Of a DNA stretch of 64,000 nucleotides, positions 9,686 to 56,773 are shown piece by piece. The position numbers and the translations under genes were made by a program. The DNA lies in the NCBI GenBank assembly GCA_025558095.1, contig JAIVFI010000006.1:558001-622000 (forward strand), given 5' to 3'. The notes beneath the pieces were generated by a model. The model was not told where the DNA came from, searched no databases, and saw nothing but the letters and a program-made list of their open reading frames with translations. This stretch comes from Hyaloraphidium curvatum (taxonomy: Eukaryota > Monoblepharomycota > Hyaloraphidiomycetes > Hyaloraphidiales > Hyaloraphidiaceae). Numbering within the stretch: position 1 is the stretch's first letter; the number at the start of each line of letters is the position of its first letter.

Positions 9686-9756
9686 CTTCACACTAGATCA
9701 AAGGTAGCCACCCCGTTCCGTCCGGGAAGCTAGAGGCCTGATGTCGGCTGTGAGAT

Positions 9757-16674: not shown

Positions 16675-18570
16675 GGGGAGGATGAACAGCTGCACCCGGT
16701 GTGCTACTTCTCAAGGGCAATGTCGAAGACCGAAGGGGACTACGACACACTTGACCAGGAGATGCTTGCAATCAAGGAAGGATTTGCAGAATGGAGGCAC
16801 TACCTGGAAGGAGCAAAGCACAGAACGATTGTGTACTCCGACCACCACAACCTGCATGCCCTGTCAAAAGCAGTGGTTCTGAAAGGCAGACACGCCAGAT
16901 GGGCACAGTTCTTTATGCGGTTTTGGTTTGAAATCAGGTACAAACCGGGCAAAGAGAATGGAAAGGCAGATGCATTGTCAAGGAAGCCACAGTTTGAGCC
17001 AAGTGAAGACCAACTGAGGGAGCAGAAGGAAAGGACAATCTTCACGAACGAGAGTTTCGTGCTGATGGCATTGCTTGCTGATGAAGAGGACGAAGATCTG
17101 TGGGAACGGATCAAAGGCCTTCAAGAAGAGGATCCTTTGGTTCAAGAGCTGAAGACATGGCTCGAGGAAGACCCACTGAGCAGAGGCAAGGAACCAAGGC
17201 CAGACATGGAACACTTCTCACTGGACGAAGGAGTGCTGTACCATGGAGACACAGTGTACGTGCCAGAAGAGCTTCGAAGGGAAGTTTTGGAGAGCAGAGA
17301 GCAGACATGACAGCAAACTCGCGGGACATTTTGGGGTCAAGAAAACACTGGAGCTCGTGGAAAGAGACTTCTGGTGGCCCAAAATGAAGAAGTTCGTGGA
17401 GGCATACGTGACGACATGTGACACTTGCCAAAGAAGCAAAGCGAATCGTCACAAGCCCTACGGAGAACTTCAGCCTTTGGGAGTACCTGAGAGAAACTGG
17501 TCATCAATCTCAATGGATTTCATTGTAGAACTACCTGAGTCTGAGGGCAGACCATGCATTCTCACAGTTGTAGACAGACTCTCCAAACAAGCGCCCTTTC
17601 TGGACTTCAAGAAGCTGCCAGATTCGGAACAGACGGCAAAGAAGTTCCTGAAGCACGTTTTCAAAGAGCATGGATTCCCGGATGAGATCATTTCGGACAG
17701 AGGCACCCAGTTTTTGTCAAAGTTCTGGAACCGTGCGTCTCATGGAGCTGTGTGACGTGAAGGTGAAAATGTCCACATCTTTTTACCCACAAACAGATGG
17801 ACAGTCTGAAATCGTCAACCAGACTCTGGAGCAGTACCTCAGAGCGTTTGTGAACTACGACCAGGACAACTGGAGAGAGCTCTTGCCTCTGGCGGAATTT
17901 GCATACAACAATTCCATCCATGCATCAACGAAAATGACGCCATTCTTTGCAAACTACGGCTTTCATCCGAAGTTTGACGTGAAAGCAGCAAAGCACAAAG
18001 TGGTGCCAAAAGCTGAAGAACTGGTTGTCAAATTGAGAGAGATCAACGACATCCTGAAGGAAGAACTTCAGCAGGCCCAGGAGGACCAGAAAAAGTTTGC
18101 AGACAGGAAACGGACAGAATTTCCGGAGCTGAAGGAGGGAGACAAAGTCTGGATTCGGACAAGGAACATCAAAACGACGAGGCCAGCAAAGAAACTGGAC
18201 TACAAGAAGATTGGACCGTACCCAGTGGAACGGAAGGTGTCTGCAGTTGCCTACAAAGTGAAACTGCCACCAGACGTGAAGATCCACCCAGTCTTTCATG
18301 TGAACCTGCTGCTGGAGCCTCACAAGGACGATCCGATCCAGGGGAGAAAGCAACCCCCACCAGCACCTGTCGTCGTGGAAGAGGAGGAACGTTGGGACGT
18401 CAAAGGAACTCTTGGATGTCTGAAAGAGAAGGAGGAAGTTGGAATTCTTCGTTGATTGGCAAGGATCTGGCATTGAGGACAGATCTTGGATTCCAGCATC
18501 GAACATTGACTCTGTCTTGATTGATGAGTTCTTTGAGAAACATCCAGAAAAGCGGCAACTCGCAAATTGA
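16675..18570 (+). pseudogene. Chromovirus pol fragment, unit 2
   Basis: Same domain order as unit 1. Here the integrase keeps HVFKEHGFPDEIISDRGTQF with the second catalytic Asp, but the frame then breaks at FWNRASHGAV-stop (17755) and resumes one frame over at MELCDVKVKMSTSFYPQTDG. The RNase H to integrase junction is also shifted near 17308, so at least three changes of frame or stops disable the protein. Confidence 0.85.
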
Positions 18571-19100
18571 GGTCAATTCACAAGTGAGAAAGGGGATGAT
18601 GTGAAGACTAGCCCTATTTGTGACTTAGGGTATGGGAGCGCTAGCGTGCAGCCTAGAGGCCATGCGCACAAACCCTTGTACCTCACCGATTCTCACTACA
18701 ATTACCCTTTGCCGCCTTGAGCCTCGCTCGGTCCTGCTACGCCCTCTAGCAGCGCCCTAGGCCAGGATCTGTCCCCGATCCTGACAGGGAGTGAGTTAGC
18801 CAACAGACAAAAGCAAAGAGGGACCAAAAAGGTCACCTGTGGACGACTGTGAAGGCACAATCGGAGCAGAAGGAGCTCGAATGCATGATTGGCAGTCGAG
18901 GCTTGAGAGCCTAGAGAGTGTGAATAGCCACTGGATCGAGGCAAAGGCCTGGCAGATGCCAGCTGAGCTTGACACAGCTTTGACGCAGAAGATCAAAGCA
19001 TGCTACAGTCTGGAAGTAAGCAAAGCAAACATCAGAAGCAAATTCAGCTGATGAGGGTCACTCTTGAAATTGAGGCAAGTCCTGGTGAGAAAGGGGAGGG

Positions 19101-19271
19101 TGTCAGGACGGGCCTTGGGAGATGGCCTAGTCATGGGTTGGTTAGGGAGAGCATATGGGGGCGGCCCAAACACCATGTACCCCACTGCTTCTCACTGTGT
19201 ACATAGACATCCCGCCGCCTCAATGCTATGCAGTCCCCACTAGGGCCCAGCTGGCCCCTGGGTTCCTGACA
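19101..19271 (+). repeat. Chromovirus LTR (171 bp), unit 2
   Basis: TGTCAGGA...TCCTGACA, with a polypurine tract immediately upstream. Sequence as in unit 1. Confidence 0.85.
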
Positions 19272-19276
19272 CATTG

Positions 19277-21683
19277 GCAGCAAACTCATGGTGTAACAGC
19301 GGCCAAGCCAGGGGCAGGTCCGGGTCACCAATACTATTCTATTCTAAGGGGAGGATGAACAGCTGCACCCGGTGTGCTACTTCTCAAGGGCAATGTCGAA
19401 GACCGAAGGGGACTACGACACACTTGACCAGGAGATGCTTGCAATCAAGGAAGGATTTGCAGAATGGAGGCACTACCTGGAAGGAGCAAAGCACAGAACG
19501 ATTGTGTACTCCGACCACCACAACCTGCATGCCCTGTCAAAAGCAGTGGTTCTGAAAGGCAGACACGCCAGATGGGCACAGTTCTTTATGCGGTTTTGGT
19601 TTGAAATCAGGTACAAACCGGGCAAAGAGAATGGAAAGGCAGATGCATTGTCAAGGAAGCCACAGTTTGAGCCAAGTGAAGACCAACTGAGGGAGCAGAA
19701 GGAAAGGACAATCTTCACGAACGAGAGTTTCGTGCTGATGGCATTGCTTGCTGATGAAGAGGACGAAGATCTGTGGGAACGGATCAAAGGCCTTCAAGAA
19801 GAGGATCCTTTGGTTCAAGAGCTGAAGACATGGCTCGAGGAAGACCCACTGAGCAGAGGCAAGGAACCAAGGCCAGACATGGAACACTTCTCACTGGACG
19901 AAGGAGTGCTGTACCATGGAGACACAGTGTACGTGCCAGAAGAGCTTCGAAGGGAAGTTTTGGAGAGCAGAGAGCAGACATGACAGCAAACTCGCGGGAC
20001 ATTTTGGGGTCAAGAAAACACTGGAGCTCGTGGAAAGAGACTTCTGGTGGCCCAAAATGAAGAAGTTCGTGGAGGCATACGTGACGACATGTGACACTTG
20101 CCAAAGAAGCAAAGCGAATCGTCACAAGCCCTACGGAGAACTTCAGCCTTTGGGAGTACCTGAGAGAAACTGGTCATCAATCTCAATGGATTTCATTGTA
20201 GAACTACCTGAGTCTGAGGGCAGACCATGCATTCTCACAGTTGTAGACAGACTCTCCAAACAAGCGCCCTTTCTGGACTTCAAGAAGCTGCCAGATTCGG
20301 AACAGACGGCAAAGAAGTTCCTGAAGCACGTTTTCAAAGAGCATGGATTCCCGGATGAGATCATTTCGGACAGAGGCACCCAGTTTTTGTCAAAGTTCTG
20401 GAACCGTGCGTCTCATGGAGCTGTGTGACGTGAAGGTGAAAATGTCCACATCTTTTTACCCACAAACAGATGGACAGTCTGAAATCGTCAACCAGACTCT
20501 GGAGCAGTACCTCAGAGCGTTTGTGAACTACGACCAGGACAACTGGAGAGAGCTCTTGCCTCTGGCGGAATTTGCATACAACAATTCCATCCATGCATCA
20601 ACGAAAATGACGCCATTCTTTGCAAACTACGGCTTTCATCCGAAGTTTGACGTGAAAGCAGCAAAGCACAAAGTGGTGCCAAAAGCTGAAGAACTGGTTG
20701 TCAAATTGAGAGAGATCAACGACATCCTGAAGGAAGAACTTCAGCAGGCCCAGGAGGACCAGAAAAAGTTTGCAGACAGGAAACGGACAGAATTTCCGGA
20801 GCTGAAGGAGGGAGACAAAGTCTGGATTCGGACAAGGAACATCAAAACGACGAGGCCAGCAAAGAAACTGGACTACAAGAAGATTGGACCGTACCCAGTG
20901 GAACGGAAGGTGTCTGCAGTTGCCTACAAAGTGAAACTGCCACCAGACGTGAAGATCCACCCAGTCTTTCATGTGAACCTGCTGCTGGAGCCTCACAAGG
21001 ACGATCCGATCCAGGGGAGAAAGCAACCCCCACCAGCACCTGTCGTCGTGGAAGAGGAGGAACGTTGGGACGTCAAAGGAACTCTTGGATGTCTGAAAGA
21101 GAAGGAGGAAGTTGGAATTCTTCGTTGATTGGCAAGGATCTGGCATTGAGGACAGATCTTGGATTCCAGCATCGAACATTGACTCTGTCTTGATTGATGA
21201 GTTCTTTGAGAAACATCCAGAAAAGCGGCAACTCGCAAATTGAGGTCAATTCACAAGTGAGAAAGGGGATGATGTGAAGACTAGCCCTATTTGTGACTTA
21301 GGGTATGGGAGCGCTAGCGTGCAGCCTAGAGGCCATGCGCACAAACCCTTGTACCTCACCGATTCTCACTACAATTACCCTTTGCCGCCTTGAGCCTCGC
21401 TCGGTCCTGCTACGCCCTCTAGCAGCGCCCTAGGCCAGGATCTGTCCCCGATCCTGACAGGGAGTGAGTTAGCCAACAGACAAAAGCAAAGAGGGACCAA
21501 AAAGGTCACCTGTGGACGACTGTGAAGGCACAATCGGAGCAGAAGGAGCTCGAATGCATGATTGGCAGTCGAGGCTTGAGAGCCTAGAGAGTGTGAATAG
21601 CCACTGGATCGAGGCAAAGGCCTGGCAGATGCCAGCTGAGCTTGACACAGCTTTGACGCAGAAGATCAAAGCATGCTACAGTC
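19277..21683 (+). mobile_element. Tandem unit 3, truncated before its LTR
   Basis: Identical to unit 2 up to gcatgctacagt at about 21683, where sequence switches abruptly to a LINE RT fragment (ccaccacttcccaagg). The last part of the non-coding tract and the LTR are missing here. An equivalent, slightly diverged tract with LTR is found farther on at 23833-24314. Confidence 0.87.
19348..21243 (+). pseudogene. Chromovirus pol fragment, unit 3
   Basis: Same coding content and the same disabling frame breaks as unit 2 (integrase ORF stop at 20428, downstream frame opening near 20343, RNase H ORF stop at 19983). The TGA inside the chromodomain is also shared, so the damage pre-dates amplification. 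Confidence 0.85.
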
Positions 21684-32072: not shown

Positions 32073-34938
32073 TAGGGTGCCTGGCAAGCTCAAAAAATAC
32101 CGTGCCCACGGGCATGCCCATCACCTGATCCGGTGCCCATGGGCACCATATGGGCATGCCCATCATGTACTTGTAGAAGAGAGTCTATTAGGAACGTGCA
32201 CGATGCTGCGCTAAGAGTGCTTCCAAGCTTATCTGTGCCTCCCCCTCCTCAACAAAAGCCCGCAGCGGTTGAGCAGCAGCCAATTGGGCTTCCTCAGCAG
32301 TGCGCAGTTGATTAATGTCGAGGAAACTCTCCAAGACATAGGGCCCTGTCGCGGCGCGGAAGACGGAAGTTGTCCCAAATCCCACCTCGAACTCCTCCTC
32401 CTCCGCATCAATGCGAGGCCAAAGTGCGTGGAAAACATCTCGGTGCTGCTCGTTTTCCGGGTCCAGGGCCCGGATAGGAGCTCCCGAGCCCAAGGTCAAG
32501 GAATCCAGGACGTCGGCAAGGTTGTCATCGGTTCCGTGGGTTCTCCAGGGCTTTTCCTCCGCAGATTGCACCCTTGGCTTTAAGGTCTTCATCTCCTGCT
32601 TCAATGCGCTCTTGACCAGCCCTATTTCCTTCAACGTTGCGGAATTCATTCGATTCCGCGAGTCTGTCTTTGCAAGGCCCAAACTGGAAAACACGCGCTC
32701 GGTCGCGGCACTGTGCGGCGCAATGCTAAGCACCATGAGCGCAAACTCGCGCACAAAGACGAGTTCCGTAGTGCCCAAGCCCCAGGTCTCCCAGAACTCC
32801 CTTGCCGTCCGAACCTGGCCGTCGATCCCGCTGAACATGTTGCGCCCGAAGAAATAGTCATCCAGCTGGGCAAGGACCGACAAGCTGGCCTCCTGTCGGA
32901 ACTTCCAAGCAAGCAGCAGCTTGCCAATCTCCCATTCGAGCCACCGCTTCTTGTCCCTGCCGTCGACCTGGCACCCAGTCACAGAAAACTTCCGGTGAAC
33001 AGGGGAAAGGTGGAGAGCAACAAGGTAGATCGCATGATCAAACTCCTTGACTCTGGCATTTAACGACAACTTAGCCAGAGCGAATGTTTCCCTGGCACCC
33101 TCCACAACGGGACTAACACCACGCCAGGTCCGAGCAACCATCGAATACTCGATCAGTACGTCTGCCAGGGTCGCGTCCGAATGCTCAAGGCGGCCTAGGG
33201 CATCCACAATCGGCCTCACGATCTGGATCAGCTCCGCATTGTGGGCAAAGTGATACGGGTCCTTCACCACATCCAGCACCCGATCTGGAACGTCTGTCGG
33301 CCGTACACCGGGTTCCAGGCCATCGTGCGCGTGTTGCGGGCTGAGGAGAAGACGGAACCACGGCTGATGTGCGTCAATGCCCAAGCAGACCGTAATGAGA
33401 GAGTACCAGCACGAGTCGGTATGCGTCGCGAGGGAGTGTGCAACATCGTGCTTGCCGGCCCAAATCTGGGCCAAGCGGCGCCACATAGGCGCCTTGTGAA
33501 TCCAATTGACGAGAGTGAGGTTCTTTTTGATCACGGAGGTGGCCCAGTCGTGCTTCACAATGTCCTTGACGAGCAGGTTGAGGTTGTGGAGAACACACCG
33601 AATGCCGATGATGTGGGGGTGCTCCGTGCTCACCAGCCGACGAAGCTTCTTCATGACGGAAGGACTGTCCGTGCAGAACGCGTTCACGGGGCCCGGGGCC
33701 GCGAGATTGAGGCCAATTGAGCGGCACGACATGTTCACCTTCTCGTGCAAAAGCTCCGCGTTGTGGCGATCCTGAGTGACATCCCAGAGGTCCAACAAAC
33801 GCTCCATGCCCGGTGTAACGGCTACCATCGCGTAGATTGAGGCCCCAGACGAATCTTCCCATCCGTCAAGCTGCAGAGTCCACGACTTTGCGGTCCCACA
33901 AAGCACGACCAACTTCTGGGCTTCGTCCCTAGTGATCTGGGTCAGGATACCACCAATAGAGTGGCGTGTCAGGGGCCGGTACGCCGGGCTCAGGATCCCC
34001 AGAGCTTGCAGCAAATATGGATTCGACGCGAATCGAAACGGGACGTTGCCGGTCACAAAAGCTTTGGTGATCGCGAAATCCACCGCACTTGCAGTGGCAG
34101 CAGACAGAGGGGGATGGAAATGAGCCAGGAGAGTTCCAGCGCCAGATGCGGAGCCCGCCGCAGAACACGCCGAGGGCGGCGTCGACGACGCGTCAGAAAA
34201 CGCGTTCCTCTTCCTGCGTTTGCTCTGCGGCGCTGCAGCAGACTTTTTCTTCTGCTCCTCGTCGTACTGATTGAGGCGCCGAAGGTACGCGACGCGTTCT
34301 TCCCCCACGGACTTGCACTTGGAAACGATGTGCTGCTCCAACCGTTCTGGCCGGCCATCCATTTCCTCCGAGCAGAAAGTGCACTTGGCCGTGACGCGTT
34401 TGCCCCTGTTCACCCCGTCCTTCCTTTTGACGAGGAAGCCCGCCCATCGCGGGTCGAGATCCGGTGCCGGGCGCACCCAATCGCCCCGCTCCACGGAAGG
34501 TCGCAAGGAGGCAGAGCCGCGCTCGGATCCGCTCTCCTCCTCGTCGCTGCGTCCTTCATTGACTGCGCTGATGCTGTCATTGGGCGCGAGTTCGTCCTCC
34601 ATGTTCAGGACTTCGCAAAGCCGGTGAACTCGCGACGAACCCCCCACCCGCCGACCGCGACACCCTCGCAGAAAAGGAACGGAGACCGCTCTACGGATGA
34701 ATGATTTCATTGAATCACTATATCAATTCATCCACGTTTGCTTGGCGTGAGCGATAGATTCCGCGTCCTGGCCCTGGCTCCTGACCCCTTAGGCCGGCTC
34801 CCCTGCCCGCTCGACGGGCTCGCTGTTGGGCACCCGGTGGGCAGCGCATCCGCAATTGGTGCCCATGGGCATGCCATGGGCATGCCCATGGGCATGCCCA
34901 CTTTGGGCATGCCCAACTTTTTGGTGCCAGGCACCCTA
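32073..34938 (-). mobile_element. hAT transposon, copy 1 (complete)
   Basis: 2866-bp element with terminal inverted repeats TAGGGTGCCTGGCA/TGCCAGGCACCCTA, flanked by an exact 8-bp target duplication AGGACGGG (32065-32072 and 34939-34946), diagnostic of the hAT superfamily. Both subterminal regions are packed with palindromes of the type GGGCATGCCC and TGCCCATGGGCA (32100-32170 and 34855-34915), probable transposase-binding sites. It carries one intact transposase gene on the minus strand. A second copy of identical length is at 53908-56773. Confidence 0.95.
32188..34710 (-). CDS. hAT transposase, copy 1
   Basis: Intact 840-codon ORF without introns. An N-terminal BED-type zinc finger covers residues about 88-135 (Cys110, Cys113, His127, Cys132). 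A basic Lys/Arg stretch follows, then a DUF659-type region. RNase H-fold acidic residues are visible as the Asp in LQLDGWEDSSG, the Asp in AFCTDSPSVM and the Glu in SAATERVFSSLG. The last lies in the C-terminal dimerisation block (LMVLSIAPHSAATERVFSSL). The Met at residue 37 (MEDELAPND) could be the real start, since the first 36 residues look like leader. The frame is fully open, and the copy appears identical to the one at 54136-56658, so the element is probably recently active. Confidence 0.93.
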   Translation of the reverse strand: MKSFIRRAVSVPFLRGCRGRRVGGSSRVHRLCEVLNMEDELAPNDSISAVNEGRSDEEESGSERGSASLRPSVERGDWVRPAPDLDPRWAGFLVKRKDGVNRGKRVTAKCTFCSEEMDGRPERLEQHIVSKCKSVGEERVAYLRRLNQYDEEQKKKSAAAPQSKRRKRNAFSDASSTPPSACSAAGSASGAGTLLAHFHPPLSAATASAVDFAITKAFVTGNVPFRFASNPYLLQALGILSPAYRPLTRHSIGGILTQITRDEAQKLVVLCGTAKSWTLQLDGWEDSSGASIYAMVAVTPGMERLLDLWDVTQDRHNAELLHEKVNMSCRSIGLNLAAPGPVNAFCTDSPSVMKKLRRLVSTEHPHIIGIRCVLHNLNLLVKDIVKHDWATSVIKKNLTLVNWIHKAPMWRRLAQIWAGKHDVAHSLATHTDSCWYSLITVCLGIDAHQPWFRLLLSPQHAHDGLEPGVRPTDVPDRVLDVVKDPYHFAHNAELIQIVRPIVDALGRLEHSDATLADVLIEYSMVARTWRGVSPVVEGARETFALAKLSLNARVKEFDHAIYLVALHLSPVHRKFSVTGCQVDGRDKKRWLEWEIGKLLLAWKFRQEASLSVLAQLDDYFFGRNMFSGIDGQVRTAREFWETWGLGTTELVFVREFALMVLSIAPHSAATERVFSSLGLAKTDSRNRMNSATLKEIGLVKSALKQEMKTLKPRVQSAEEKPWRTHGTDDNLADVLDSLTLGSGAPIRALDPENEQHRDVFHALWPRIDAEEEEFEVGFGTTSVFRAATGPYVLESFLDINQLRTAEEAQLAAAQPLRAFVEEGEAQISLEALLAQHRARS

Positions 34939-45204: not shown

Positions 45205-45289
45205 CGCTGGTATGGGCTGTGGCGTGGACAACGGCGTCGACAGCGAAAGCACTAGCTACACTCTCAGAAACTGCTACTGTTCCCCCTGT

Positions 45290-45307
45290 GCCGCAATCCT
45301 TTGCGGC
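45290..45307 (-). ncRNA. Hairpin in the short tract after the Fanzor stop (candidate guide-RNA region)
   Basis: GCCGCAA-TCCT-TTGCGGC forms a perfect 7-bp stem with a 4-nt loop, 65 nt past the Fanzor stop codon on its coding strand. It lies in the 167-bp gap before the OSCP start. TnpB/Fanzor systems encode their guide RNA at or just past the 3' end of the nuclease gene, so a hairpin here is notable. It could equally be a chance palindrome or part of the OSCP promoter. Confidence 0.2.
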
Positions 45308-45371
45308 CTAGCAGCAATGTTCATCATCGAGCCTGCGAATAAAAGGCGGTCCCTGACGGACTCCACCTCGA

Positions 45372-48300
45372 TCAAGCAAATGCAATGGCGCCCACGCGGT
45401 GCATGGCACGCCAACTTGTAACTGTTTCCGCGGCCAGGTCAGCTTGCCGGCTTGAGCTTCTTGACCGACCCATTCGCGGCGCTTGCGGCCGTACGCTTGC
45501 GGCCTGTGGCGGCACCTGGAGCTCCCGGATCAGCTCGGGATGACGCTCGGGATGACCGTCGCGAATGCGAGCGCGCTCACCCGCGGACTTGCGCGGCGCT
45601 GCACCAGTCCCAGCTCGGAGCTTGGGCTGCGGCTTCGGCTTCCTGGTGTCCGGCCTGAACGGCCAGGGGCGCTCCCCTCCGGTGATGAGGCCGAACCAGA
45701 AGAGGTGCTCCATGGAGTGCACACTGTTCACGTCGCGCATCCAGAAGCGGCGGCAGAGGGGACAGTATTTCACCCCGCGCACCTCGCCCTTGGAGCCGGG
45801 GTTCCGGATTCCGACGACATAGGTGGTCTTGCAGCTGGAAAGGACGTCAGGCGAGTCGGATGATCACGGCGGCTGCCGCACCAGCTGCACATCTGGGACG
45901 TGAGGTACTCGTTGACCAAGACCATGATCCCGGCCTTGGCCAGCTCCGCCCTGAAGCGAACGATCCGGGAGGCCGGGCCGCCCTTGCTCGCATGGCCGAA
46001 TCGCGCGGCGCCGTATGCGATGGTCGTCTGTGGATCGTACTTGCCCGAATACGGGTTGCGACACATGTCGCGACAGATCCAGCTGAGGACCTCGCGGCGC
46101 CGGCGAATCGTGCGCACACGATCCAGGCTGCAGGATGCGTGAGCGAAGTCGTTGCCACAGGGATTGGCTTGCCCACCTCCGTTCTCCGGAACAGTAGACG
46201 TCCAGGATGCGGTCGAGTTGTGGCAGCAGCGCCCTCGTGTAGTCCGAGAAGGCTGCACTGTTTGTCGTGCGTTGAGAGGGCAGGTCGCGCTCGAAATCGT
46301 GGAGAGACTTCTGCACAGGGTTGCCCTCGCAATCGTTGACGTCCAGCATGGTGGTCCGCTTGGTGGCATTCAGACGCGCGGCCGCCTTGTCGTAGCCGCA
46401 CAGGCGGCGGTCGAGCTTGGCCGGAACACCGAGGATGAGCTCCGGCAGCGCCGGGGTCCCCGCACGGCCGGCACCAGCGACCTCGCCCCACAGCTTGGCA
46501 CCAAACTCGTCCGTGCAGCCGCCAGGGGTCGGGAACAGTTCGACGTTGCGCCGAGCGTGCTTCTCCGCCTTTGCAGCGTCGTTGGGGCGCGAATCGGGCG
46601 CCGGCGGCTTGAACTCCGAGATCTTGGGCTCCCAGAGCGGGTGGTGTCTGCACGCTCCAGCGGCAGGCGGCGACGGACCGAAAGACCTTGCGATCCGCTT
46701 AGTATCGGAGCAGGAGTGCTCTAGGTGGAAGCCGACGATCCTCCCGAAGCTGACGGAACCGTCGGCCTTGGACGGGTTCGCCCGCTTCGGCACGTAGTGC
46801 GACTTGGTGCCGTCGGCATTGGTCACGGTGATGCGCTCCGTTGTCCCCGGCAGATGACTGTTGGCGAAGTCGTAGCGTCCGTTCGGCCCGGGATTCAGGC
46901 TCTTGGCAACGAGCCGCACGTCGACGCGGCGGTTGGCAACAGCCAGAAACCAGCGATTCGGATCCACGTCGACGACCCCGCCCTCCACTGGCTCGCCGCG
47001 CTCGGCCCGCTCGAACATTTCCGCCTGCGTCGGCATGTGCAGGAGATTGGGTGCCAGCACGGACACATGGTCAGGGCGGCTGAGGTAGTAGACGGGAATG
47101 CCAGTCTTGAAGTCGACCGGGGGCCGCGGCAACGGCTCGGCAGAACGCGGCGGGAGCGGAACCGGGGTCGGGGCCAGCTGAGGAGGTACGGGGGCAGCGA
47201 ACTTGCCCTCGACCGTTACCGTCGGCGGCGACGGTTCGACCGCGCAAACGACGACTTCGGGAGGGAAGCAAGAAAGGAAGGGGGAAGGAAGTGGCGGCGA
47301 GAAGTCGGGGAAAGGAAGGGCCGCGCATGGATGCACAGAAGTCTCGGGCACCGAGTCACCGGGCGAGACAGTCGCGCAGGGAGGGTCGTTGTGCCCCGAG
47401 CTCAGGGGCGCGAACACGTTGGGCGCACAGTCCACGGCCTTGCAGGCGGCATCTTGACAGCACGAGCACGGGTCGTGCACCCAATGCGGGGGCGGTTCCG
47501 GGGGAATGGAGGCAGGGAGAGAAGTCGAGGCTGGTGGTTCGACGAAGGAGAAAAAGGGCGGGGGTTCCGGCGGGACCGCGGCGGGGATGCCGCAGTCCGC
47601 CGGAGGCTCGGAAGGCATGGTGGTGAAGTTAAGGTTGCTGCTGGCACAATAAGAGGGCTCCCAATCCATCGGGACCGATTCGTCCCCTTGGGCCGTCGCC
47701 TGCAGGTAGTAGACCATGCCCCCATGCCAAATCCGATTCTGGCCTGGAAAAGTGAGGATCCGATCAGCCTCCGAACCCGTGCGTCACTGAGCAAAATGCC
47801 CACCATCGAAGACAGCCATGTCGCACGGCGGGTCCGGATCGCCGTTTGGCAGCCATGGACCGGTGTAGAGCGGCGGGTATGGATCCATCGGAACATCGCG
47901 AGGGAACGAAACATCCACTTCGAAAGCAGCAAGACCGGCGGGCACATGAGCTGCGGCGGGAACGGAGACGGTGGGCCGAGTTTGAACAGGAGGAGCCGGC
48001 GCGGCTGCTGGCGAATGCGCTGCGCGCTTTGGCGGCTCGACGTCCTGTGTCGTGTTTTGCCGCTCCTGCTGCTGCGACTGCTGGAACGAGACCTTTTCCA
48101 CGAAGGAGACTTCTTCGTTAAGAATGCCCAGGGTGCTGCCGCAATGATAGATGCCCCGGACGCCGGAGTACCTCAGAACGTCCGCGGTGCGACGATAGAT
48201 GGGCTGCGTGGCGGCGGCATGGCCCCTTGCCGAGACTTTGCCCTGCTGACGGAGGCGGAAGAGCCGGTCCTCGTTGACGAGTTGGTTGCCGCCGTTGAGC

Positions 48301-51300
48301 AGGTGGCCGAATAGGTAGTCCGAGTCAACGCGCGAGGTGTCGATGCCAGGCGCGACCTCCACGCCCAGCTTGGACAAAAACTCGGGCAGATCCGAGGCCG
48401 AGATGTAGACGGTCACGGGGGACAAGCTGATTTCGGCGACCGCAGCCCGAAGCTTCCGCCGCGCCCACGAGGCTGCCTTTTCCTTGCCGGTCTGGGCGGC
48501 GCCAAGCCCCGCCATCGCGGCGGCGGCGGCCGCCTTGCGCTCCCGCCGCTTCGTCTCCATGGTCTCCTTCTTGGCGAGTCCCTCGGGCCCCGGCTGCGGT
48601 CGGCGCTTACGGAAGCTCACGACGAACCCGTGCCATCGCTTCGGGGAGCCATTCTTGCTGTAATGCCGCTTCTCGACGCGGTGCGGCCGCCACGTGTTGC
48701 GGGCCCTCCTGGTCTTGTTCGAAGCCTCCCTGTCCTTGACCGGAGCAGTTGAAATGGTTGGGAAAGTTGGGGTTGAATCGGGGTCCCTGGCGGTGCTCGT
48801 CCTCCGCGCCGTTCCAGGTTCCGGCAGTGCAGCAGCCGCGGACGCGGCCCTCTTCTTCAGCGCCTCGTCCTGCTTTTCGAGCTCGTGCAGGGCGATGAAG
48901 CACATCTGGAAGCCGAAGGCTTCGTCCGCGGGGTTCGTGGATGAACGACACTTGTCGAGGTCATACTCGCTCATCCGCGCCACCAGAAGCTTCTCGCTTT
49001 CCCAGTGGGGCCGGTTCTGCCCCACCAATGCCGCCGCCGCCGCCTCGTTCATGTCCTCGGCGTGCTCGGGGACCCAGAACTTGGGTTTCTGCTCTGTCGA
49101 CCGAATCGTTGCCGTGGTCACGGCCGGGTAGCGGAAGGGGATGCTCCGAAGCTGTAGACGGTTTGCAACCACCCAGTCCCTCAGCTCCTGCAGCTCCACC
49201 TTTCGCAAGTCAGCCTTCTCCGCAGGTGAGGCCCGCGGCAGCGTCTCCCAAATGTTCTGGAGGTAGCTGCGCACCGCCTCCGTTTCCGCGTCGACCTTTC
49301 CGCGCGGCTTGCCCTTCGGCAGGTTCACGGTTCGCACCGCGGCCGCCACGGGGTTGCCCGCCTGCTTGTCCTGCAGGACCCGAGCGATAACCCTCCGCTG
49401 CGAAACGGTTGCCGGCACCGGCGGCTTCTGTTTTGAATCCCGGAGGTCAACGATCCGGTTCAGCTGCAAGCCTCTGAACGGCCGGAAAAGCCTCCCCAGC
49501 CCGACCCTGAGCTCCGTGGCCTCGGCAAGACCACAGCCAAATGCGCTTTCGAACGGGAAATTGGAGAAGTCGTCGTCCCCATATCCGAGCTTTGCCAGAG
49601 CGTAGCTGAGGATTGGGCCAATCCGCCTCCGGCCGACGCCCGCGTTCACCTCCCCGCGTAGGAAGCGACGGATGAGAACCTTGAGCGCAGTCAGCAGCCG
49701 CTGCGGCACGCTTCGAGCTCGGTTGAAAGCGACCTGCTCGGCATAGCGGAGCAAAGGTCCCTGCACGAAAAGCGGCCTGAGCTTTTCGTACGTCTCGCCC
49801 ACAAGTTCCCGCGCCTCTGCAAACGCAGCAACGGCCGCCTTGCGGACAAGCTTTGCCGCTGCGTTGTGCTCCGCGACGGTGAGAACGGACGGTGCGCCCT
49901 GATCAGCAACCTGCGAGAGATCGGGGGTGTCCTCAGCCGTAACCAAGTCCTCGTCCTCAATCTGATCCAGCTCGCCGTGCAAGAAGTCGGCCAAGATCTT
50001 GGCGCCGGCCTGGTCCTCGTCCATCGCGTCGTCATCGTCCTCGAAGTCAACGTCCTCGAGCACCTCGTCTCGATCGTCGTCGTTGGCTCCGAGGTCCGGA
50101 CCGCCGTCCACAAGCTGCTCCACTCCTGGCGCACCCGAATGGCCCGAGTATCTCGCCCCAGCACCGAGCCCGGCCGACTTCTGCTTTCCCGCGCGGCGGG
50201 TTCCAACAGCGGCGGACATCTGGCCGGCACCAAGCACGGCGTGGATGGCAATCTTTGCGACGTAAGACGGGGGAAAGCTGGCGAGCATGTCCTGCGTGAC
50301 GGATCCGTCTTGGTCCGGGAGCTCTTTGTTGTGGATCTGCAACAAGATCTTGGTCCAGATGATCTTGAACAAGATGGCGGCGAGGGTGCAGGCCTTGGTG
50401 ATGAGGGGCCCGACTTGCTCGTACGGGCCCCGCGCCCATGGGTGGCACACCTCGGCCGCCGGGAACCACTCGACGGCCAGCTCCGTCATCGTCTTGTATC
50501 GCTCGTGCTGGGGGTCGCCAAGTGCGAGGAAGCCGTTGAGCGCGACCCACCGCCGCTTCGGAGAGCACTCCTGCCGGTGCCTCCCGCCACCGGCGAAACA
50601 GAAAGGGCAGGACGAGCCGCCGAGGCCCGTAGGAATGTTGGCTTTGAGGTTTGTCGACGCGAACGGGACAATGTAGTGTGCGTTGGCAATGAACTGGCCG
50701 AACGACGTGGTGAGATTCCTTGGGGCGACCAAACTGTCCGCGGCGGCGGTCAGCTTCGCATCGGTCCCAGGCATGCATGGAAAGCGCGGTGCAACTCACG
50801 CCCCACGGTGGTTCTCCTCGACATGCTGCCGGAACTCACTCTCGAGGTCGAACTGATGTCCCTTCCCCGGGCACGCTCTGCAGGTGAGGTGCGCACCCTT
50901 GACGTGGTGGAGGAGCCGAAGCTCGGCGTCATAGACACGCTCCCGCGCAGCTCCGTCAGCCACCATCCCCGACGCCGCGACCTTGCGCCGCCGCCCAGCC
51001 TTCGCCGGGACTTCGCCTTCCACCTGCACACTGAAGGAACAGAGCGGACAATCCCGCTTCTGGATACGGCCGAAGTCCAGCAGTCCAACGGATTCCGCGA
51101 GGAAGTGGAGCTTGGCGTCGAGCGCGGTGCGCGCGGCCTCCTGCCGTGCTTCGGGGTTGCTACCGCGCACCAGCGCGGGCATACCGCACAAGTCCAGGGT
51201 AAAATCGCGCATCTTGGGCCCCGACTCCAGCAGCCGCAGCGTCACCATGGAAGAGTGTTCCCACCCGAGCTGCTCCGCCTTCAGGAACAGGGTTGCCAGC

Positions 51301-51371
51301 AGCTTATCGCCCTCTGCATCCAGTCCAGGTACGCCCGGGCTCATCTGGAAAAGGCCCGGGAACGAAAGCAG
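45372..51371 (-). CDS. Fanzor (TnpB-like RuvC nuclease), eukaryotic
   Basis: Putative RNA-guided DNA nuclease. The 5' part (51371-50800) has Cys/His motifs: CPLCSF, and CRACPGKGHQFDLESEFRQH with VEENH. The next exon (50733-47804) has SSCPFCFAGGGRHRQEC, a helical block AAILFKIIWTKILLQIHNKE (LPDQDG) resembling Fanzor N-terminal helices, an acidic patch near 50040, and long basic helices. Exon 47743-46177 has a Pro/Cys-rich linker, then the RuvC-I Asp in GGVVDVDPNRWFLAVANRR (about 46965). It also encodes LPQLDRILDVYCSGER, spliced to SLDRVRTIRRRREVLSWICR. RuvC-II-like TIAYGAARFGHASKGG is followed by VLVNEYLTSQMCS, the NEY/DEY-TS motif before the zinc ribbon. CSCC (across a splice) and YCPLC make the ribbon, and RDVNSVHSM supplies the RuvC-III Asp (about 45734). 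The usual RuvC-II Glu is absent, with a Glu in NEY 35 residues on, as reported for Fanzors. N-terminal limits are unsure. Confidence 0.82.
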
Positions 51372-51386
51372 CTGCCGGGGCAAAAA

Positions 51387-53744
51387 TCAGTTTGGGATTG
51401 CGGGGCTGCTCGACAGGAGATTGCACACCAGCACGGGAACGGAACCCGGATTCTCGATGGCGAGGGCCTCCTCGTTGGCCGCCATCGGGTTCCACACCGC
51501 CCAATCGAAGAATCTCTTGCGCCCTTCCGCATTGCGACTCGCCACACTATCCGGCAAACGCGCCGCCATGACTATCTTGCATCGCTGCGGGAGGGAGAGC
51601 GAAGCAAGGAAGTACTCCAGGCCGGGCGACGCATCAAAAAGCGAGCGGCCCTGCTGGTCCTTCAGCGTGCGGCACGCTTCCTCCAGTATCTGCCTAAGGT
51701 TCCTTGGCAAAGACTCGGTCGAAGCCGCGCGTTCGAGGTACTCCAACCGACAGACCTTCGAAATGGGCTGGTGAACATAATGCAGAGCACGACGTGCTGT
51801 CTCGGATGTTTCGAAGCTGTCCATGCGTGCCCTCCCGGCCGGGCCGAGCTGTCCCCAGAGAGAAACAGCGAGCGCACGTAGCCATTCTGGTCCACGACCG
51901 TTTCGTACAAGGCCCGATAGGAGGATGGCGAACCTCTCGTCCAGCACGGTGTCGTTTGCAAGGGCTGAGAGCGGAAACAGCTGTTTCAACGCGGCGCGGC
52001 TGGCTTTCTTGAACGAGACGTTAAGTTCCGGTGGGACGTCGGCATAGCGGGCGAGGTTATCCAGCTGGGAGATGGAGACGTCGGGGGCTGACGGCGGTCC
52101 CAGATCCGCGCCATCGTCCGCGGGGCGGAAAAAGGGAGGTGCCGGTGCGTCTGGTCCGATCAGACTGGGGGCGACCCGGCGCCGCCGGGCGACGATGTTC
52201 CGGAGGCGCGCGACGAAAAGCTCGCGCTCCAGCTTGTACCCCCGACCCGATGCCACCCGCTGACAGATGAACTCAAAAGGAGCTTCACCGAGGTTGGAGA
52301 GGCCCCCGAGGACGTCCGCAGCGTCGAAGCCCGCGGTCCTTTGAGCGGAGTCCGTGAAGTCGTTCCACGGCCCAAAGAATTCCCTCGCCGAACCATCGAC
52401 GTGGAGAACTTCCCTCAGGGTCAGCAAAGTGTGCTTTTGGTGCGGGTTGATGTGGGCGACGCCGAGGTTGCGAGCCTGCTCGGAGTGGGCGTTGTCGTGA
52501 GTCAGCGCGGTCTGCATGCCCGATGCGCAACCGTCATGGCAGTCCACCTCTTCAGCGAGCCGCTCGGCCGCGTTTGCTTCGGTCTGGGTCGCTGCTGCGC
52601 CCTCCATCGCGGAAGGGCACGTCTGAGGAGCCGGAGAAGCAAAGGCAGAGATCTGACCTTGTAGTGTGACCTTCCGCGCCACACATTTGCCGGCGGACGC
52701 GGATTCCGCGATGCGCACAAACTCAGCCTCGCTTAGCTTCAAGCAGTGCCGGAACGTCGCCATCAGATCGCCGTGGCCGACGATTTGAATGGCCCTCTCG
52801 ATGGACCGGACGAGATCCGGCACTGTCCTGGGGCAGTCCCGCCTCACGAGGTTCTTGATCGTGGCAAACACGTACTCGGTCGGGTTAAATTCCGGCGATC
52901 TCGGTCGCAGGTAGATGAGGCTCAGATTGTTGGCCTTTGCTACGGCCTGGACCGCAAGGAACGACTTGCCCGAGAGGTTCTTTATTATTGCCGTGCCGTC
53001 CGTGGTCTTCCTTGCCCGCAGAGGAGAGCCGTGGAAACCCGCATTGTCCAGGATAACGCCCAGGGACTCGGACCCACAAGCCCCGGCGCGAATAGTCTTG
53101 AGAAAAGCACAGAACCTCTCGGTGTTCATGTTGCCGCTGTAGATCTGGTACGAGATCACGTTTCCAGTGTGATTACCGGGTCGCGAAGTGGGTGAGATGG
53201 CGAGGCAAAGGGTCACCTTGGGGCCCCGGTTCCCTGGCAGGTATACGACGGCGGGAGTCCCCTTCTCCGAGTAGCCGAAGCGCCCCGGATCGTTGAGTTG
53301 GAATGAGGACTCGTCCAAGGCACCTAGGCGCCCCAAATCAAAGGAAGTGACCCTCTCGTGGAACATGCGGTGCCGCTCGGGTTGTTTCAGGGCTTCGGCG
53401 CTCTTAATGGTGAGCTTCTTCCTCGTGACCCTGTTGGCCTTCAGCAGCCGCGAGATATGCTGCTGCGACACCAAAACGCCAAACTTTTCCGCCAGGTCAG
53501 CAGCGAGCTCCCTTTGCGTCACGCGGACGCGAGCTTTGGCCTCGTCAACTACGTGCCGGACCATTTCCTCGGACACCTTGCGGAAGGCCTTGCGGGGATG
53601 GTCCGGAACGGTCTGAGCCCCACATCGGCGGATCCAACGGAAATACGTCGTTCGGTGAATTGCGAGTACAGCAGCAATCTCGTCCGGGCCAAGCTTGCCG
53701 GTCTGCTTGAGCCGAACCGCGGTTTCTGGCCCGCTCAGAAGCAT
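51387..53744 (-). CDS. IS630/Tc1-mariner-type DDE transposase with long C-terminal extension
   Basis: 785-codon open frame. Residues 15-110 hold two helix-turn-helix units (DEIAAVLAIHRTTYFRWIRR; VTQRELAADLAEKFGVLVSQ, then HISRLLKANRV), as in paired-type DNA-binding regions of this superfamily. Catalytic residues are Asp144 (GALDESSFQL), Asp233 (GVILDNAGFHGS) and Glu290 (RSPEFNPTEYVFATIKN). The second Asp and Glu are 56 residues apart, wider than the usual 34-36, because of an insertion (RARKTTDGTAIIKNLSGKSF). After residue about 340 the frame continues for another 440 residues of unrecognised, mostly helical sequence (FDAADVLGGLSNLGEAPFEF; WAVWNPMAANEEALAIENP) instead of ending. The stop at 51387 may lie inside an intron, making this the 5' exon of the Fanzor gene. 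Confidence 0.85.
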   Translation of the reverse strand: MLLSGPETAVRLKQTGKLGPDEIAAVLAIHRTTYFRWIRRCGAQTVPDHPRKAFRKVSEEMVRHVVDEAKARVRVTQRELAADLAEKFGVLVSQQHISRLLKANRVTRKKLTIKSAEALKQPERHRMFHERVTSFDLGRLGALDESSFQLNDPGRFGYSEKGTPAVVYLPGNRGPKVTLCLAISPTSRPGNHTGNVISYQIYSGNMNTERFCAFLKTIRAGACGSESLGVILDNAGFHGSPLRARKTTDGTAIIKNLSGKSFLAVQAVAKANNLSLIYLRPRSPEFNPTEYVFATIKNLVRRDCPRTVPDLVRSIERAIQIVGHGDLMATFRHCLKLSEAEFVRIAESASAGKCVARKVTLQGQISAFASPAPQTCPSAMEGAAATQTEANAAERLAEEVDCHDGCASGMQTALTHDNAHSEQARNLGVAHINPHQKHTLLTLREVLHVDGSAREFFGPWNDFTDSAQRTAGFDAADVLGGLSNLGEAPFEFICQRVASGRGYKLERELFVARLRNIVARRRRVAPSLIGPDAPAPPFFRPADDGADLGPPSAPDVSISQLDNLARYADVPPELNVSFKKASRAALKQLFPLSALANDTVLDERFAILLSGLVRNGRGPEWLRALAVSLWGQLGPAGRARMDSFETSETARRALHYVHQPISKVCRLEYLERAASTESLPRNLRQILEEACRTLKDQQGRSLFDASPGLEYFLASLSLPQRCKIVMAARLPDSVASRNAEGRKRFFDWAVWNPMAANEEALAIENPGSVPVLVCNLLSSSPAIPN

Positions 53745-53907
53745 GTTTTGGCCGTGCCGTTCCCCGATGCGACGCAGGAGGCACCACGCGCCTTTTGCGA
53801 TGGAGACTGTGCTCTAGCGGTTGCAAATTCGCACGCGGCGACTCCGGCAAGCTCGAGTAGCGGGACCTGTGTGTGAAACTATGGCCGTTTGGGCAAAGCT
53901 TGCCCAC

Positions 53908-56773
53908 TAGGGTGCCTGGCACCAAAAAGTTGGGCATGCCCAAAGTGGGCATGCCCATGGGCATGCCCATGGCATGCCCATGGGCACCAATTGCGGATGC
54001 GCTGCCCACCGGGTGCCCAACAGCGAGCCCGTCGAGCGGGCAGGGGAGCCGGCCTAAGGGGTCAGGAGCCAGGGCCAGGACGCGGAATCTATCGCTCACG
54101 CCAAGCAAACGTGGATGAATTGATATAGTGATTCAATGAAATCATTCATCCGTAGAGCGGTCTCCGTTCCTTTTCTGCGAGGGTGTCGCGGTCGGCGGGT
54201 GGGGGGTTCGTCGCGAGTTCACCGGCTTTGCGAAGTCCTGAACATGGAGGACGAACTCGCGCCCAATGACAGCATCAGCGCAGTCAATGAAGGACGCAGC
54301 GACGAGGAGGAGAGCGGATCCGAGCGCGGCTCTGCCTCCTTGCGACCTTCCGTGGAGCGGGGCGATTGGGTGCGCCCGGCACCGGATCTCGACCCGCGAT
54401 GGGCGGGCTTCCTCGTCAAAAGGAAGGACGGGGTGAACAGGGGCAAACGCGTCACGGCCAAGTGCACTTTCTGCTCGGAGGAAATGGATGGCCGGCCAGA
54501 ACGGTTGGAGCAGCACATCGTTTCCAAGTGCAAGTCCGTGGGGGAAGAACGCGTCGCGTACCTTCGGCGCCTCAATCAGTACGACGAGGAGCAGAAGAAA
54601 AAGTCTGCTGCAGCGCCGCAGAGCAAACGCAGGAAGAGGAACGCGTTTTCTGACGCGTCGTCGACGCCGCCCTCGGCGTGTTCTGCGGCGGGCTCCGCAT
54701 CTGGCGCTGGAACTCTCCTGGCTCATTTCCATCCCCCTCTGTCTGCTGCCACTGCAAGTGCGGTGGATTTCGCGATCACCAAAGCTTTTGTGACCGGCAA
54801 CGTCCCGTTTCGATTCGCGTCGAATCCATATTTGCTGCAAGCTCTGGGGATCCTGAGCCCGGCGTACCGGCCCCTGACACGCCACTCTATTGGTGGTATC
54901 CTGACCCAGATCACTAGGGACGAAGCCCAGAAGTTGGTCGTGCTTTGTGGGACCGCAAAGTCGTGGACTCTGCAGCTTGACGGATGGGAAGATTCGTCTG
55001 GGGCCTCAATCTACGCGATGGTAGCCGTTACACCGGGCATGGAGCGTTTGTTGGACCTCTGGGATGTCACTCAGGATCGCCACAACGCGGAGCTTTTGCA
55101 CGAGAAGGTGAACATGTCGTGCCGCTCAATTGGCCTCAATCTCGCGGCCCCGGGCCCCGTGAACGCGTTCTGCACGGACAGTCCTTCCGTCATGAAGAAG
55201 CTTCGTCGGCTGGTGAGCACGGAGCACCCCCACATCATCGGCATTCGGTGTGTTCTCCACAACCTCAACCTGCTCGTCAAGGACATTGTGAAGCACGACT
55301 GGGCCACCTCCGTGATCAAAAAGAACCTCACTCTCGTCAATTGGATTCACAAGGCGCCTATGTGGCGCCGCTTGGCCCAGATTTGGGCCGGCAAGCACGA
55401 TGTTGCACACTCCCTCGCGACGCATACCGACTCGTGCTGGTACTCTCTCATTACGGTCTGCTTGGGCATTGACGCACATCAGCCGTGGTTCCGTCTTCTC
55501 CTCAGCCCGCAACACGCGCACGATGGCCTGGAACCCGGTGTACGGCCGACAGACGTTCCAGATCGGGTGCTGGATGTGGTGAAGGACCCGTATCACTTTG
55601 CCCACAATGCGGAGCTGATCCAGATCGTGAGGCCGATTGTGGATGCCCTAGGCCGCCTTGAGCATTCGGACGCGACCCTGGCAGACGTACTGATCGAGTA
55701 TTCGATGGTTGCTCGGACCTGGCGTGGTGTTAGTCCCGTTGTGGAGGGTGCCAGGGAAACATTCGCTCTGGCTAAGTTGTCGTTAAATGCCAGAGTCAAG
55801 GAGTTTGATCATGCGATCTACCTTGTTGCTCTCCACCTTTCCCCTGTTCACCGGAAGTTTTCTGTGACTGGGTGCCAGGTCGACGGCAGGGACAAGAAGC
55901 GGTGGCTCGAATGGGAGATTGGCAAGCTGCTGCTTGCTTGGAAGTTCCGACAGGAGGCCAGCTTGTCGGTCCTTGCCCAGCTGGATGACTATTTCTTCGG
56001 GCGCAACATGTTCAGCGGGATCGACGGCCAGGTTCGGACGGCAAGGGAGTTCTGGGAGACCTGGGGCTTGGGCACTACGGAACTCGTCTTTGTGCGCGAG
56101 TTTGCGCTCATGGTGCTTAGCATTGCGCCGCACAGTGCCGCGACCGAGCGCGTGTTTTCCAGTTTGGGCCTTGCAAAGACAGACTCGCGGAATCGAATGA
56201 ATTCCGCAACGTTGAAGGAAATAGGGCTGGTCAAGAGCGCATTGAAGCAGGAGATGAAGACCTTAAAGCCAAGGGTGCAATCTGCGGAGGAAAAGCCCTG
56301 GAGAACCCACGGAACCGATGACAACCTTGCCGACGTCCTGGATTCCTTGACCTTGGGCTCGGGAGCTCCTATCCGGGCCCTGGACCCGGAAAACGAGCAG
56401 CACCGAGATGTTTTCCACGCACTTTGGCCTCGCATTGATGCGGAGGAGGAGGAGTTCGAGGTGGGATTTGGGACAACTTCCGTCTTCCGCGCCGCGACAG
56501 GGCCCTATGTCTTGGAGAGTTTCCTCGACATTAATCAACTGCGCACTGCTGAGGAAGCCCAATTGGCTGCTGCTCAACCGCTGCGGGCTTTTGTTGAGGA
56601 GGGGGAGGCACAGATAAGCTTGGAAGCACTCTTAGCGCAGCATCGTGCACGTTCCTAATAGACTCTCTTCTACAAGTACATGATGGGCATGCCCATATGG
56701 TGCCCATGGGCACCGGATCAGGTGATGGGCATGCCCGTGGGCACGGTATTTTTTGAGCTTGCCAGGCACCCTA
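53908..56773 (+). mobile_element. hAT transposon, copy 2 (complete)
   Basis: 2866 bp, the same length as copy 1 and in opposite orientation, with TAGGGTGCCTGGCA/TGCCAGGCACCCTA ends. It is flanked by the exact 8-bp duplication TTGCCCAC (53900-53907 and 56774-56781). The same GGGCATGCCC palindrome clusters fill both subterminal regions (53930-53990 and 56680-56745). It inserted about 155 bp upstream of the transposase-Fanzor start codon. Confidence 0.95.
54136..56658 (+). CDS. hAT transposase, copy 2
   Basis: Intact 840-codon intron-less ORF, residue for residue the same as copy 1 as far as I can compare: BED finger (Cys110, Cys113, His127, Cys132), Asp in LDGWED, Asp in CTDSPS, Glu in ATERVFS. 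The identity of two autonomous copies 20 kb apart in different target sites implies recent transposition. Start uncertainty is the same (Met1 or Met37). Confidence 0.93.
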   Translation: MKSFIRRAVSVPFLRGCRGRRVGGSSRVHRLCEVLNMEDELAPNDSISAVNEGRSDEEESGSERGSASLRPSVERGDWVRPAPDLDPRWAGFLVKRKDGVNRGKRVTAKCTFCSEEMDGRPERLEQHIVSKCKSVGEERVAYLRRLNQYDEEQKKKSAAAPQSKRRKRNAFSDASSTPPSACSAAGSASGAGTLLAHFHPPLSAATASAVDFAITKAFVTGNVPFRFASNPYLLQALGILSPAYRPLTRHSIGGILTQITRDEAQKLVVLCGTAKSWTLQLDGWEDSSGASIYAMVAVTPGMERLLDLWDVTQDRHNAELLHEKVNMSCRSIGLNLAAPGPVNAFCTDSPSVMKKLRRLVSTEHPHIIGIRCVLHNLNLLVKDIVKHDWATSVIKKNLTLVNWIHKAPMWRRLAQIWAGKHDVAHSLATHTDSCWYSLITVCLGIDAHQPWFRLLLSPQHAHDGLEPGVRPTDVPDRVLDVVKDPYHFAHNAELIQIVRPIVDALGRLEHSDATLADVLIEYSMVARTWRGVSPVVEGARETFALAKLSLNARVKEFDHAIYLVALHLSPVHRKFSVTGCQVDGRDKKRWLEWEIGKLLLAWKFRQEASLSVLAQLDDYFFGRNMFSGIDGQVRTAREFWETWGLGTTELVFVREFALMVLSIAPHSAATERVFSSLGLAKTDSRNRMNSATLKEIGLVKSALKQEMKTLKPRVQSAEEKPWRTHGTDDNLADVLDSLTLGSGAPIRALDPENEQHRDVFHALWPRIDAEEEEFEVGFGTTSVFRAATGPYVLESFLDINQLRTAEEAQLAAAQPLRAFVEEGEAQISLEALLAQHRARS

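Follow-up and report, generated by a model that had tools for sequence, protein, structure and literature searches.

A stretch of 64,000 nucleotides from Hyaloraphidium curvatum (GenBank assembly GCA_025558095.1, contig JAIVFI010000006.1, positions 558,001 to 622,000), hereafter the window, contains on its minus strand an 8.6-kb DNA transposon that encodes an IS630-type DDE transposase and a Fanzor-like nuclease. We favor, with a probability of about 60%, the reading that this is a recently active transposon with one spliced gene, whose predicted product has the transposase at its N terminus and a divergent Fanzor-like nuclease at its C terminus, joined via probable zinc-binding motifs and a middle region. 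Descriptions of these two activities usually assign them to different proteins. An earlier note on this DNA, made from its letters, had described the two enzymes as a physical pair of adjacent frames spanning 45372-53744. The pairing stands, since the copy boundaries put both enzymes in one mobile element, although the word probably understates what is likely to be one fused frame. The element is longer than was thought (45253-53881), and the separate frames are most likely one spliced gene.

A multicopy transposon carrying two enzymes

Throughout, coordinates are window positions on the minus strand, and the window copy is the reference copy of a transposon family that we call A. When the host genome (31.9 Mb in 55 contigs) was searched with the nuclease exon, 10 copies were found at 98-100% identity, five at 81%, and two at 35-38%. 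The 10 copies of family A are mutually 99.66-99.98% identical. The five copies of family B, a sister family, define a second element of ∼8,655 bp, and families C and D (loci L037 and L038) both lie on contig C2. Alignment of the nine other family A copies with the window copy delimits the whole transposon to 45253-53881, i.e. 8,629 bp including the terminal T[A/C]. Seven of the nine begin at 53879-53881, and all nine stop at 45253, give or take a few bases. Comparison of the element ends revealed short and imperfect terminal inverted repeats. The 5′ repeat (53867-53881) reads TAGTTTCACACACAG in the window copy and TCGTTTCACACACAG in six others, and the 3′ repeat (45253-45267) reads CTGAGAGTGTAGCTA. 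The TCG form of the 5′ repeat agrees with the opposite terminus at 10 of its first 15 bases; over 20 bases, 11 match in family A and 10 in family B. Genome-wide, the A 5′ end has nine exact matches, all in family A copies, and six with one mismatch (the copy with an altered 5′ end and five elsewhere; 10 for a reversed-pattern control). The A 3′ end is found in nine family A copies only. Because exact matches to the A ends occur only in family A copies, this host-genome search with the A ends gave no sign of short non-autonomous A derivatives. As judged from these sequences, family A appears to be a recently active DNA transposon.

The transposase occupies exon 1 (51429-53744, residues 1-772), in which Pfam, NCBIfam, and the A/B alignment distinguish a helix-turn-helix (HTH), an IS630-type DDE domain reaching to about residue 345, and an extension of ∼430 residues with no credible Pfam match. 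The catalytic residues are those read in the earlier note, Asp144, Asp233, and Glu290 (counted from the ATG at 53744), with the second Asp and the Glu 56 residues apart. This triad is invariant in families A and B and in two other transposases of the host genome. Profile searches placed the protein in the IS630 family, with scores above the cut-offs for Pfam DDE_3 (E = 5.5e-15, 55.9 bits versus 28.6) and for the NCBIfam IS630 family transposase (126.9 bits versus 100). Between A and B, the ratio of non-synonymous to synonymous rates (dN/dS, calculated from the printed dN and dS, with dS at 1.2-2.5 and thus near saturation) is 0.17 in the HTH+DDE segment.

The Fanzor marks listed in the earlier note are likewise all present on the minus strand. 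The nuclease displays a RuvC-I motif VDVDPNRW (catalytic Asp at 46962-46964), the block AYGAARFGHASKGG, a RuvC-II Glu in NEYLTSQMC (45908-45910), and a RuvC-III motif RDVN (catalytic Asp at 45732-45734). The three acidic residues and a C4 zinc finger are invariant in families A-D. In all four families, the glutamate is an alternative one, located six residues before the first zinc-finger Cys, and a RuvC-II glutamate so placed is given as the Fanzor arrangement in passages of PMC10711439. The pattern CxxC..CxxC is followed five residues on by RD in A-D (in A and B after splicing), so that the published Fanzor1 signature of a C4 zinc finger followed by X(5,50)-RD (PMC3627910, in part) is found in each of them. 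Of the two CxxC pairs seen earlier in unspliced DNA, the first is real in a different form: it is cut by intron 5, the spliced reading is CSC|C, and the CSWC of the unspliced frame is a coincidence. The TNB profile of Pfam scored 20 bits with the window copy alone, below the cut-off of 26.3, and exceeded it in families C (32.1 bits) and D (31.2 bits). A profile built from A-D and compared with the PDB had Guillardia theta Fanzor1 as its best match (E = 4.9e-4), over profile positions 362-430, i.e. the C-terminal part only; single-sequence PDB searches with the window frames returned no Fanzor. The profile searches that the earlier note had proposed for 45372-47743 thus placed the nuclease within TnpB/Fanzor, through the TNB matches of C and D and the PDB match of the A-D profile.

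Two features speak against a strict assignment. The RuvC-I motif is DPNR in A-D and not DPG, which is described as occurring "near exclusively" in Fanzors at this position (PMC10711439, in part); a more distantly related locus in the same genome, L046, has DPGNK there. In addition, the spacing from D to [TS][TS] is 337, 324, 324, and 317 residues in A, B, C, and D, which exceeds the D-X(125,275)-[TS][TS] given for Fanzor1 in PMC3627910. Because neither signature is present, we named the nuclease Fanzor-like and not Fanzor1 in the strict sense. By homology, catalytic triad, alternative glutamate, and zinc finger, its sequence is nevertheless assigned to TnpB/Fanzor.

Transposase and nuclease lie on one strand within one element at all 10 A and all five B loci, at a near-constant distance. 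In families C and D, they are also on one strand and in the same order, ∼8.2 kb apart. Six further zinc-finger matches were found in the genome, four with a same-strand IS630 match 15-23 kb upstream and two without. Altogether, a same-strand transposase lies ≤25 kb upstream at 21 of 23 Fanzor-like loci, whereas ∼0.012 per locus would be expected from an even spread of matches, a figure that is only rough because repeats cluster. The arrangement in A-D shows that the pairing is not due to chance.

Could the nuclease be a mere passenger, with catalytic residues kept only through the youth of the copies, while the transposase does all the work? The high identity within family A (99.66-99.98%) would allow it, since such copies had little time to decay, and so would the IS630 relatives at loci L039 and L040 (contigs C5 and C23), in which no Fanzor was detected in the 10 kb examined for each. 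Both are members of a related IS630 family, in which the DDE domain is followed by a long open frame that is not alignable to the extension in A. We nevertheless regard a passenger role as improbable. Families A and B have long been separated, yet dN/dS is 0.37 and 0.16 in the nuclease segments (0.16 in the zinc finger), and the association recurs at 21 of 23 loci. Moreover, the nuclease frames of C and D persist while their transposase frames are broken, looking frameshifted by eye: the C nuclease frame is open, and that of D is open apart from a presumed intron (by eye), a TGA and a TAG being counted inside its match. The exon 5 portion of the nuclease is the most conserved, at 83% identity between A and B.

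Several of the other loci show features of their own. A 1-kb stretch spanning the transposase is 92% identical between families C and D, whose other parts are 66-77% alike or not alignable as DNA, a patchwork that suggests recombination or gene conversion. Fanzor-like sequences with broken frames occur at L045, L046, and L047 (contigs C13, C23, and C15), 17-23 kb downstream of same-strand IS630 matches, and these pairs could be giant elements of ∼20 kb. Locus L044 (contig C5, 335500-338499) is Fanzor-like, with "VDEYLSSQRCPRC" and, by eye, DVG at RuvC-I; no IS630 match was found within 25 kb upstream of it. One family A copy, L030, sits inside an element of the L039/L040 type.

Exons, introns, and the case for one protein

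Intron positions come from the A/B comparison and from the requirement of an open frame. Six GT-AG introns (47-66 nt in A, 49-60 nt in B) fall at shared places with phases 0, 2, 1, 2, 2, and 1, and homology flanks every frame break on both sides. Intron 1 (51372-51428, 57 nt, GTGTGC..CAG, phase 0) contains the TGA that ends the unspliced transposase frame; its counterpart in B has the same position and phase, measures 59 nt, and likewise lies between stretches of conserved protein. Exon 2 (50800-51371, residues 773-962), 36% identical between A and B, displays two Cys/His motifs that are probably zinc-binding, and at the same place B has a weak match to family D (E = 0.001). After intron 2 (50734-50799, 66 nt, phase 2), exon 3 (47804-50733, approximately residues 963-1939, 31-40% identical in B) encodes a CxxC motif and then a partly acidic middle region. 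Intron 3 (47744-47803, 60 nt, phase 1) precedes exon 4 (46177-47743), which, on comparison of A, B, and the other families, comprises a proline-rich linker and the start of the nuclease with RuvC-I. The rest of the nuclease, delimited in the same way, is split between exon 5 (45882-46127), with the alternative RuvC-II glutamate, and exon 6 (45581-45834), with the remaining zinc finger and RuvC-III (CPLCRRFWMRDVNS). These exons are bounded by intron 4 (46128-46176, 49 nt, phase 2), whose place in family D is, by eye, taken by a GT..AG stretch, intron 5 (45835-45881, 47 nt, phase 2), and intron 6 (45516-45580, 65 nt, phase 1). Exon 7 (45439-45515) adds a basic C-terminal tail (GRKRTAAS...VKKLKPAS), a possible nuclear localization signal, and the stop codon.

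The spliced frame is 2,653 codons long in A and ∼2,684 in B (2,684-2,693 over the splice options), and identity between the two is 39% across the initial 1,700 columns of the alignment. It is intact in seven of the 10 A copies, and GT-AG is found at all six introns in all 10; the other three copies have, respectively, a 1-base deletion, an in-frame 171-base deletion, and a 5′-side alteration plus a stop. Four of the five B copies are uninterrupted, and one has an inserted base somewhere in the gene span. Between A and B, dN/dS is below 0.6 in nine of 10 segments, being 0.28-0.56 in seven besides the zinc finger and HTH+DDE. Polymorphism within A (altered copy L028 excluded) amounts to 19.5 synonymous changes over 1,997 sites and 32.5 non-synonymous changes over 5,962 sites.

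Whether these exons yield one protein turns on intron 1. An unlikely but serious alternative is that of two neighboring genes, a stand-alone transposase that stops at the TGA in "intron 1" and a large Fanzor-like gene with a start of its own, either downstream or in a leader exon. The TGA does occupy equivalent alignment positions in the two families, a Met shared by both occurs 54 residues past the splice point, and in PGv-1 and PUl-1 Fanzor1 is a protein distinct from the Mariner transposase (PMC3627910). Coding conservation, however, begins at the splice acceptor, ahead of this shared Met. Read in the spliced frame, the 53 residues in between are conserved at a level reached by 0 of 5,000 shuffles (z = 6.1), whereas the other two frames of the same stretch show no conservation (z = −0.4 and −0.6, 2,000 shuffles each). 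Furthermore, B has no Met in the spliced frame before codon 55 after the splice, and a second gene starting with AUG therefore does not fit B, though one begun in a leader exon from elsewhere might. There would also be scant room for a 3′ end, a promoter, and a leader, and in both families the junction is GT-AG, of the same phase and similar length, with a CTGAY-like motif by eye. Read-through of the TGA was rejected as another explanation. It could join the two frames in A, where they share a register, and not in B, where they do not, so that both families cannot be explained in this way.

A number of observations weigh against a single protein. Read as a 13-codon tail that ends at an equivalent stop in both families, intron 1 shows some similarity between A and B (z = 4.1, equaled by 3 of 5,000 shuffles), and a transposase-only product made by intron 1 retention is therefore possible. 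Family B needs two extra introns, and one of these could be spliced at any of several points. Constraint relative to B is not seen in the last 43 codons (dN/dS 0.97). Families C and D have a broken transposase frame and a middle region that does not recognizably correspond to that of A and B. Given that conservation runs straight across intron 1, where B lacks an AUG, we take a fusion protein as the best interpretation and consider it probable that transposase, middle region, and nuclease form one chain.

The middle region appears to be peculiar to these elements, all of its 26 genome-wide matches lying within the 10 A and five B copies. It has no Pfam or PDB match, and a single-sequence AlphaFold model had a mean predicted local distance difference test score of 39.3 and was not used. 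The idea that it corresponds to the N-terminal lobe of Fanzors was dropped, as nothing supported it. A match to an OTU-like protease in family C (E = 0.03, 15.2 bits versus a cut-off of 23.3) was not taken as evidence of polyprotein cleavage.

Target sites, 3′ end, and a possible mechanism

Eight of the nine A copies with both ends are flanked by 2-bp target duplications at a fixed offset (CG, GC, AC, CC, TG, AT, TG, and CC), the tenth copy having been left out of the count since its ends are altered. None of 2,000 permutations, run on family A alone, scored as high. Of the nine, only the window copy shows no such duplication; on its 5′ side it borders directly on other repeats. In B, duplications occur at one offset in three of five copies (CC, CG, and CT) and one base further in the other two (GT and AC). 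TA is not found among these 13 duplications. This is unusual, since the whole IS630-Tc1-mariner infraclass is stated in PMC8533490 to recognize TA, and the duplications named there and in PMC7386202 are TA, TATA, TAA, and TAAA. The earlier attribution to an IS630/Tc1-mariner type hence holds for IS630, by profile, and needs a caveat for Tc1/mariner. On present sequence evidence, we classify the element as IS630-type by its transposase and atypical by its target duplication.

The insertions of A and B appear to favor positions shortly before start codons. In 10 of 30 flanks, an ATG opening a frame of ≥100 codons lies within 50 nt, compared with 11% of random window positions (p = 0.0009; 0.0009-0.03 over the six threshold pairs tried). 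The window copy itself ends ∼50 nt before a gene for ATP synthase OSCP, and other insertions neighbor a gene with a JAB domain and one whose match to the Atg3 type is weak. A single flank column, −20 on the left, exceeded the random 95% level for 20 columns (0.80 bit versus 0.62).

The 3′ non-coding end of the element (45253-45378) contains a run of 21 nt (45357-45377) shared without mismatch by A and B; no exact match between them in 8.6 kb is longer, and the next longest, 19 nt, is in coding sequence. The run lies in a hairpin in both families, and D has a similar start. The predicted fold of the 3′ end, however, does not stand out from that of shuffles (z = −1.03, with 32 of 200 doing as well). 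No target-adjacent motif (TAM)-like sequence is conserved at the junction in 14 left and 13 right flanks. Rfam had no match in the window at gathering scores. The predicted frame of B passes through the motif, and protein conservation could therefore also account for the run. By its position and the 21-nt match, the 3′ end is an unproven candidate for the scaffold of a guide (omega) RNA. Of the OMEGA-type (obligate mobile element-guided activity) element proposed in the earlier note, the presence of both enzymes in one element is borne out, and the guide RNA amounts to this candidate 3′ motif with its fold at z = −1.03.

Physical joining would also permit a scenario in which the Fanzor-like half steers the fused transposase to guide-matching sites, a natural counterpart of engineered Cas9-transposase fusions. 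The excess of insertions near gene starts over random would agree with such RNA-guided transposition. The right flanks of 14 copies, however, resemble the targets of other copies no more than control sites do, and the junctions share no motif. The guide proteins of known RNA-guided transposons are inactive nucleases, whereas the RuvC residues of this nuclease are intact. We therefore consider this scenario very improbable.

The scheme that we put forward instead, tentatively, starts from the favored single spliced gene. The protein would be made as a single chain, whose DDE half would cut and paste the element through cuts staggered by two bases. The Fanzor-like half would be armed by a non-coding RNA running through the right end into the flank, the guide being read from the right flank; Fanzor1 reRNAs (right-element RNAs) are described as transcribed through the right end into the flank (PMC10711439, in part). 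The armed nuclease might then cut the vacated site, or an empty sister or homologue, and repair would copy the element back. Being fused, the two enzymes would stay together on one element. The chain may also be cleaved, or retention of intron 1 may yield transposase alone. In this still doubtful picture, a natural single chain of a DDE transposase and an RNA-guided nuclease with an intact RuvC site, freed from the TA rule, would excise and re-cut as one tethered machine.

Relation to known systems and neighboring repeats

Fanzor1 proteins inside Mariner elements have been known since 2013 (Bao & Jurka, PMC3627910, in part); what appears to be new here is the single frame with the transposase, as predicted from splicing. 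PGv-1 and PUl-1, the Tc1/mariner elements described in that text, similarly combine a Fanzor with a Mariner-type DDE transposase, the latter on the 5′ side, in one element bounded by terminal inverted repeats. They differ in having separate proteins and TA duplications, as opposed to one spliced frame with a large middle region and 2-bp non-TA duplications, and the word "fusion" is absent from the main text of the paper. Guillardia theta Fanzor1 (PDB 9cer), the best PDB profile match, shares the RuvC + TNB layout and, unlike the window element, is described without such a partner in PMC11423790; according to Saito et al. (PMC10432273), it is not clearly associated with a transposase. The bacterial IS630 family has the HTH + DDE transposase in common with the window element, which is set apart by its 56-residue D-E gap, C-terminal extension, joined nuclease, and non-TA duplication. 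Long or variable D-E spacing and cut-and-paste transposition are shared with Sailor, pogo, and other IS630-Tc1-mariner groups (PMC8533490 and PMC7386202, in part), the duplications of which (TA, TATA, TAA, and TAAA) contrast with those of the window element. Similar in design is the engineered dCas9-Hsmar1 transposase (PMC6735945), in which an RNA-guided Cas protein is joined to a mariner transposase. That fusion is man-made with a dead nuclease, whereas the window element is natural and has kept its RuvC residues.

No transposase-Fanzor fusion was found among the titles listed in the literature search, subscription papers being outside its scope. In a large protein collection, at E ≤ 1e-3, no relative was found of the 199-aa exon (176 candidates), of residues 150-600 of the family C nuclease (8,000 candidates sharing most words scored), or of residues 1-785 comprising transposase and extension (8,000 candidates, with a length limit that excludes IS630 proteins of ∼350 aa). 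Viral contigs likewise yielded no confirmed relative of the nuclease among 81 pattern matches or of the transposase among 31. What role Fanzors play for the transposons that carry them is not settled, and some proven ones have no clear transposase partner (PMC10432273, in part). If the favored reading is true, a fusion with both active sites kept would argue that the nuclease acts within the transposition cycle. It would also be a natural model for the transposase-nuclease fusions engineered today, and the non-TA 2-bp duplications would widen the known target choice of IS630-type elements. As a young, multicopy, and self-contained element, it offers a system for testing the role of the nuclease.

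Other repeats are present in the window. A hAT transposon of 2,866 bp occurs in two copies that are 100% identical and in opposite orientation (53908-56773 and 32073-34938), with a DUF659 match and a hAT dimerization domain just below cut-off. One of the two lies ∼28 bp from the transposase-Fanzor element, within another inverted repeat (53880-53907/57270-57297). By eye, frames at 8369-12939 and 17652-21125 resemble reverse transcriptase ("FVDFTKAFDTVE") and integrase ("YPQTDGQSEIVNQTLE"), the integrase-like motif being found in two 267-aa frames that begin alike. GC content drops in this stretch, which probably consists of nested retroelements.

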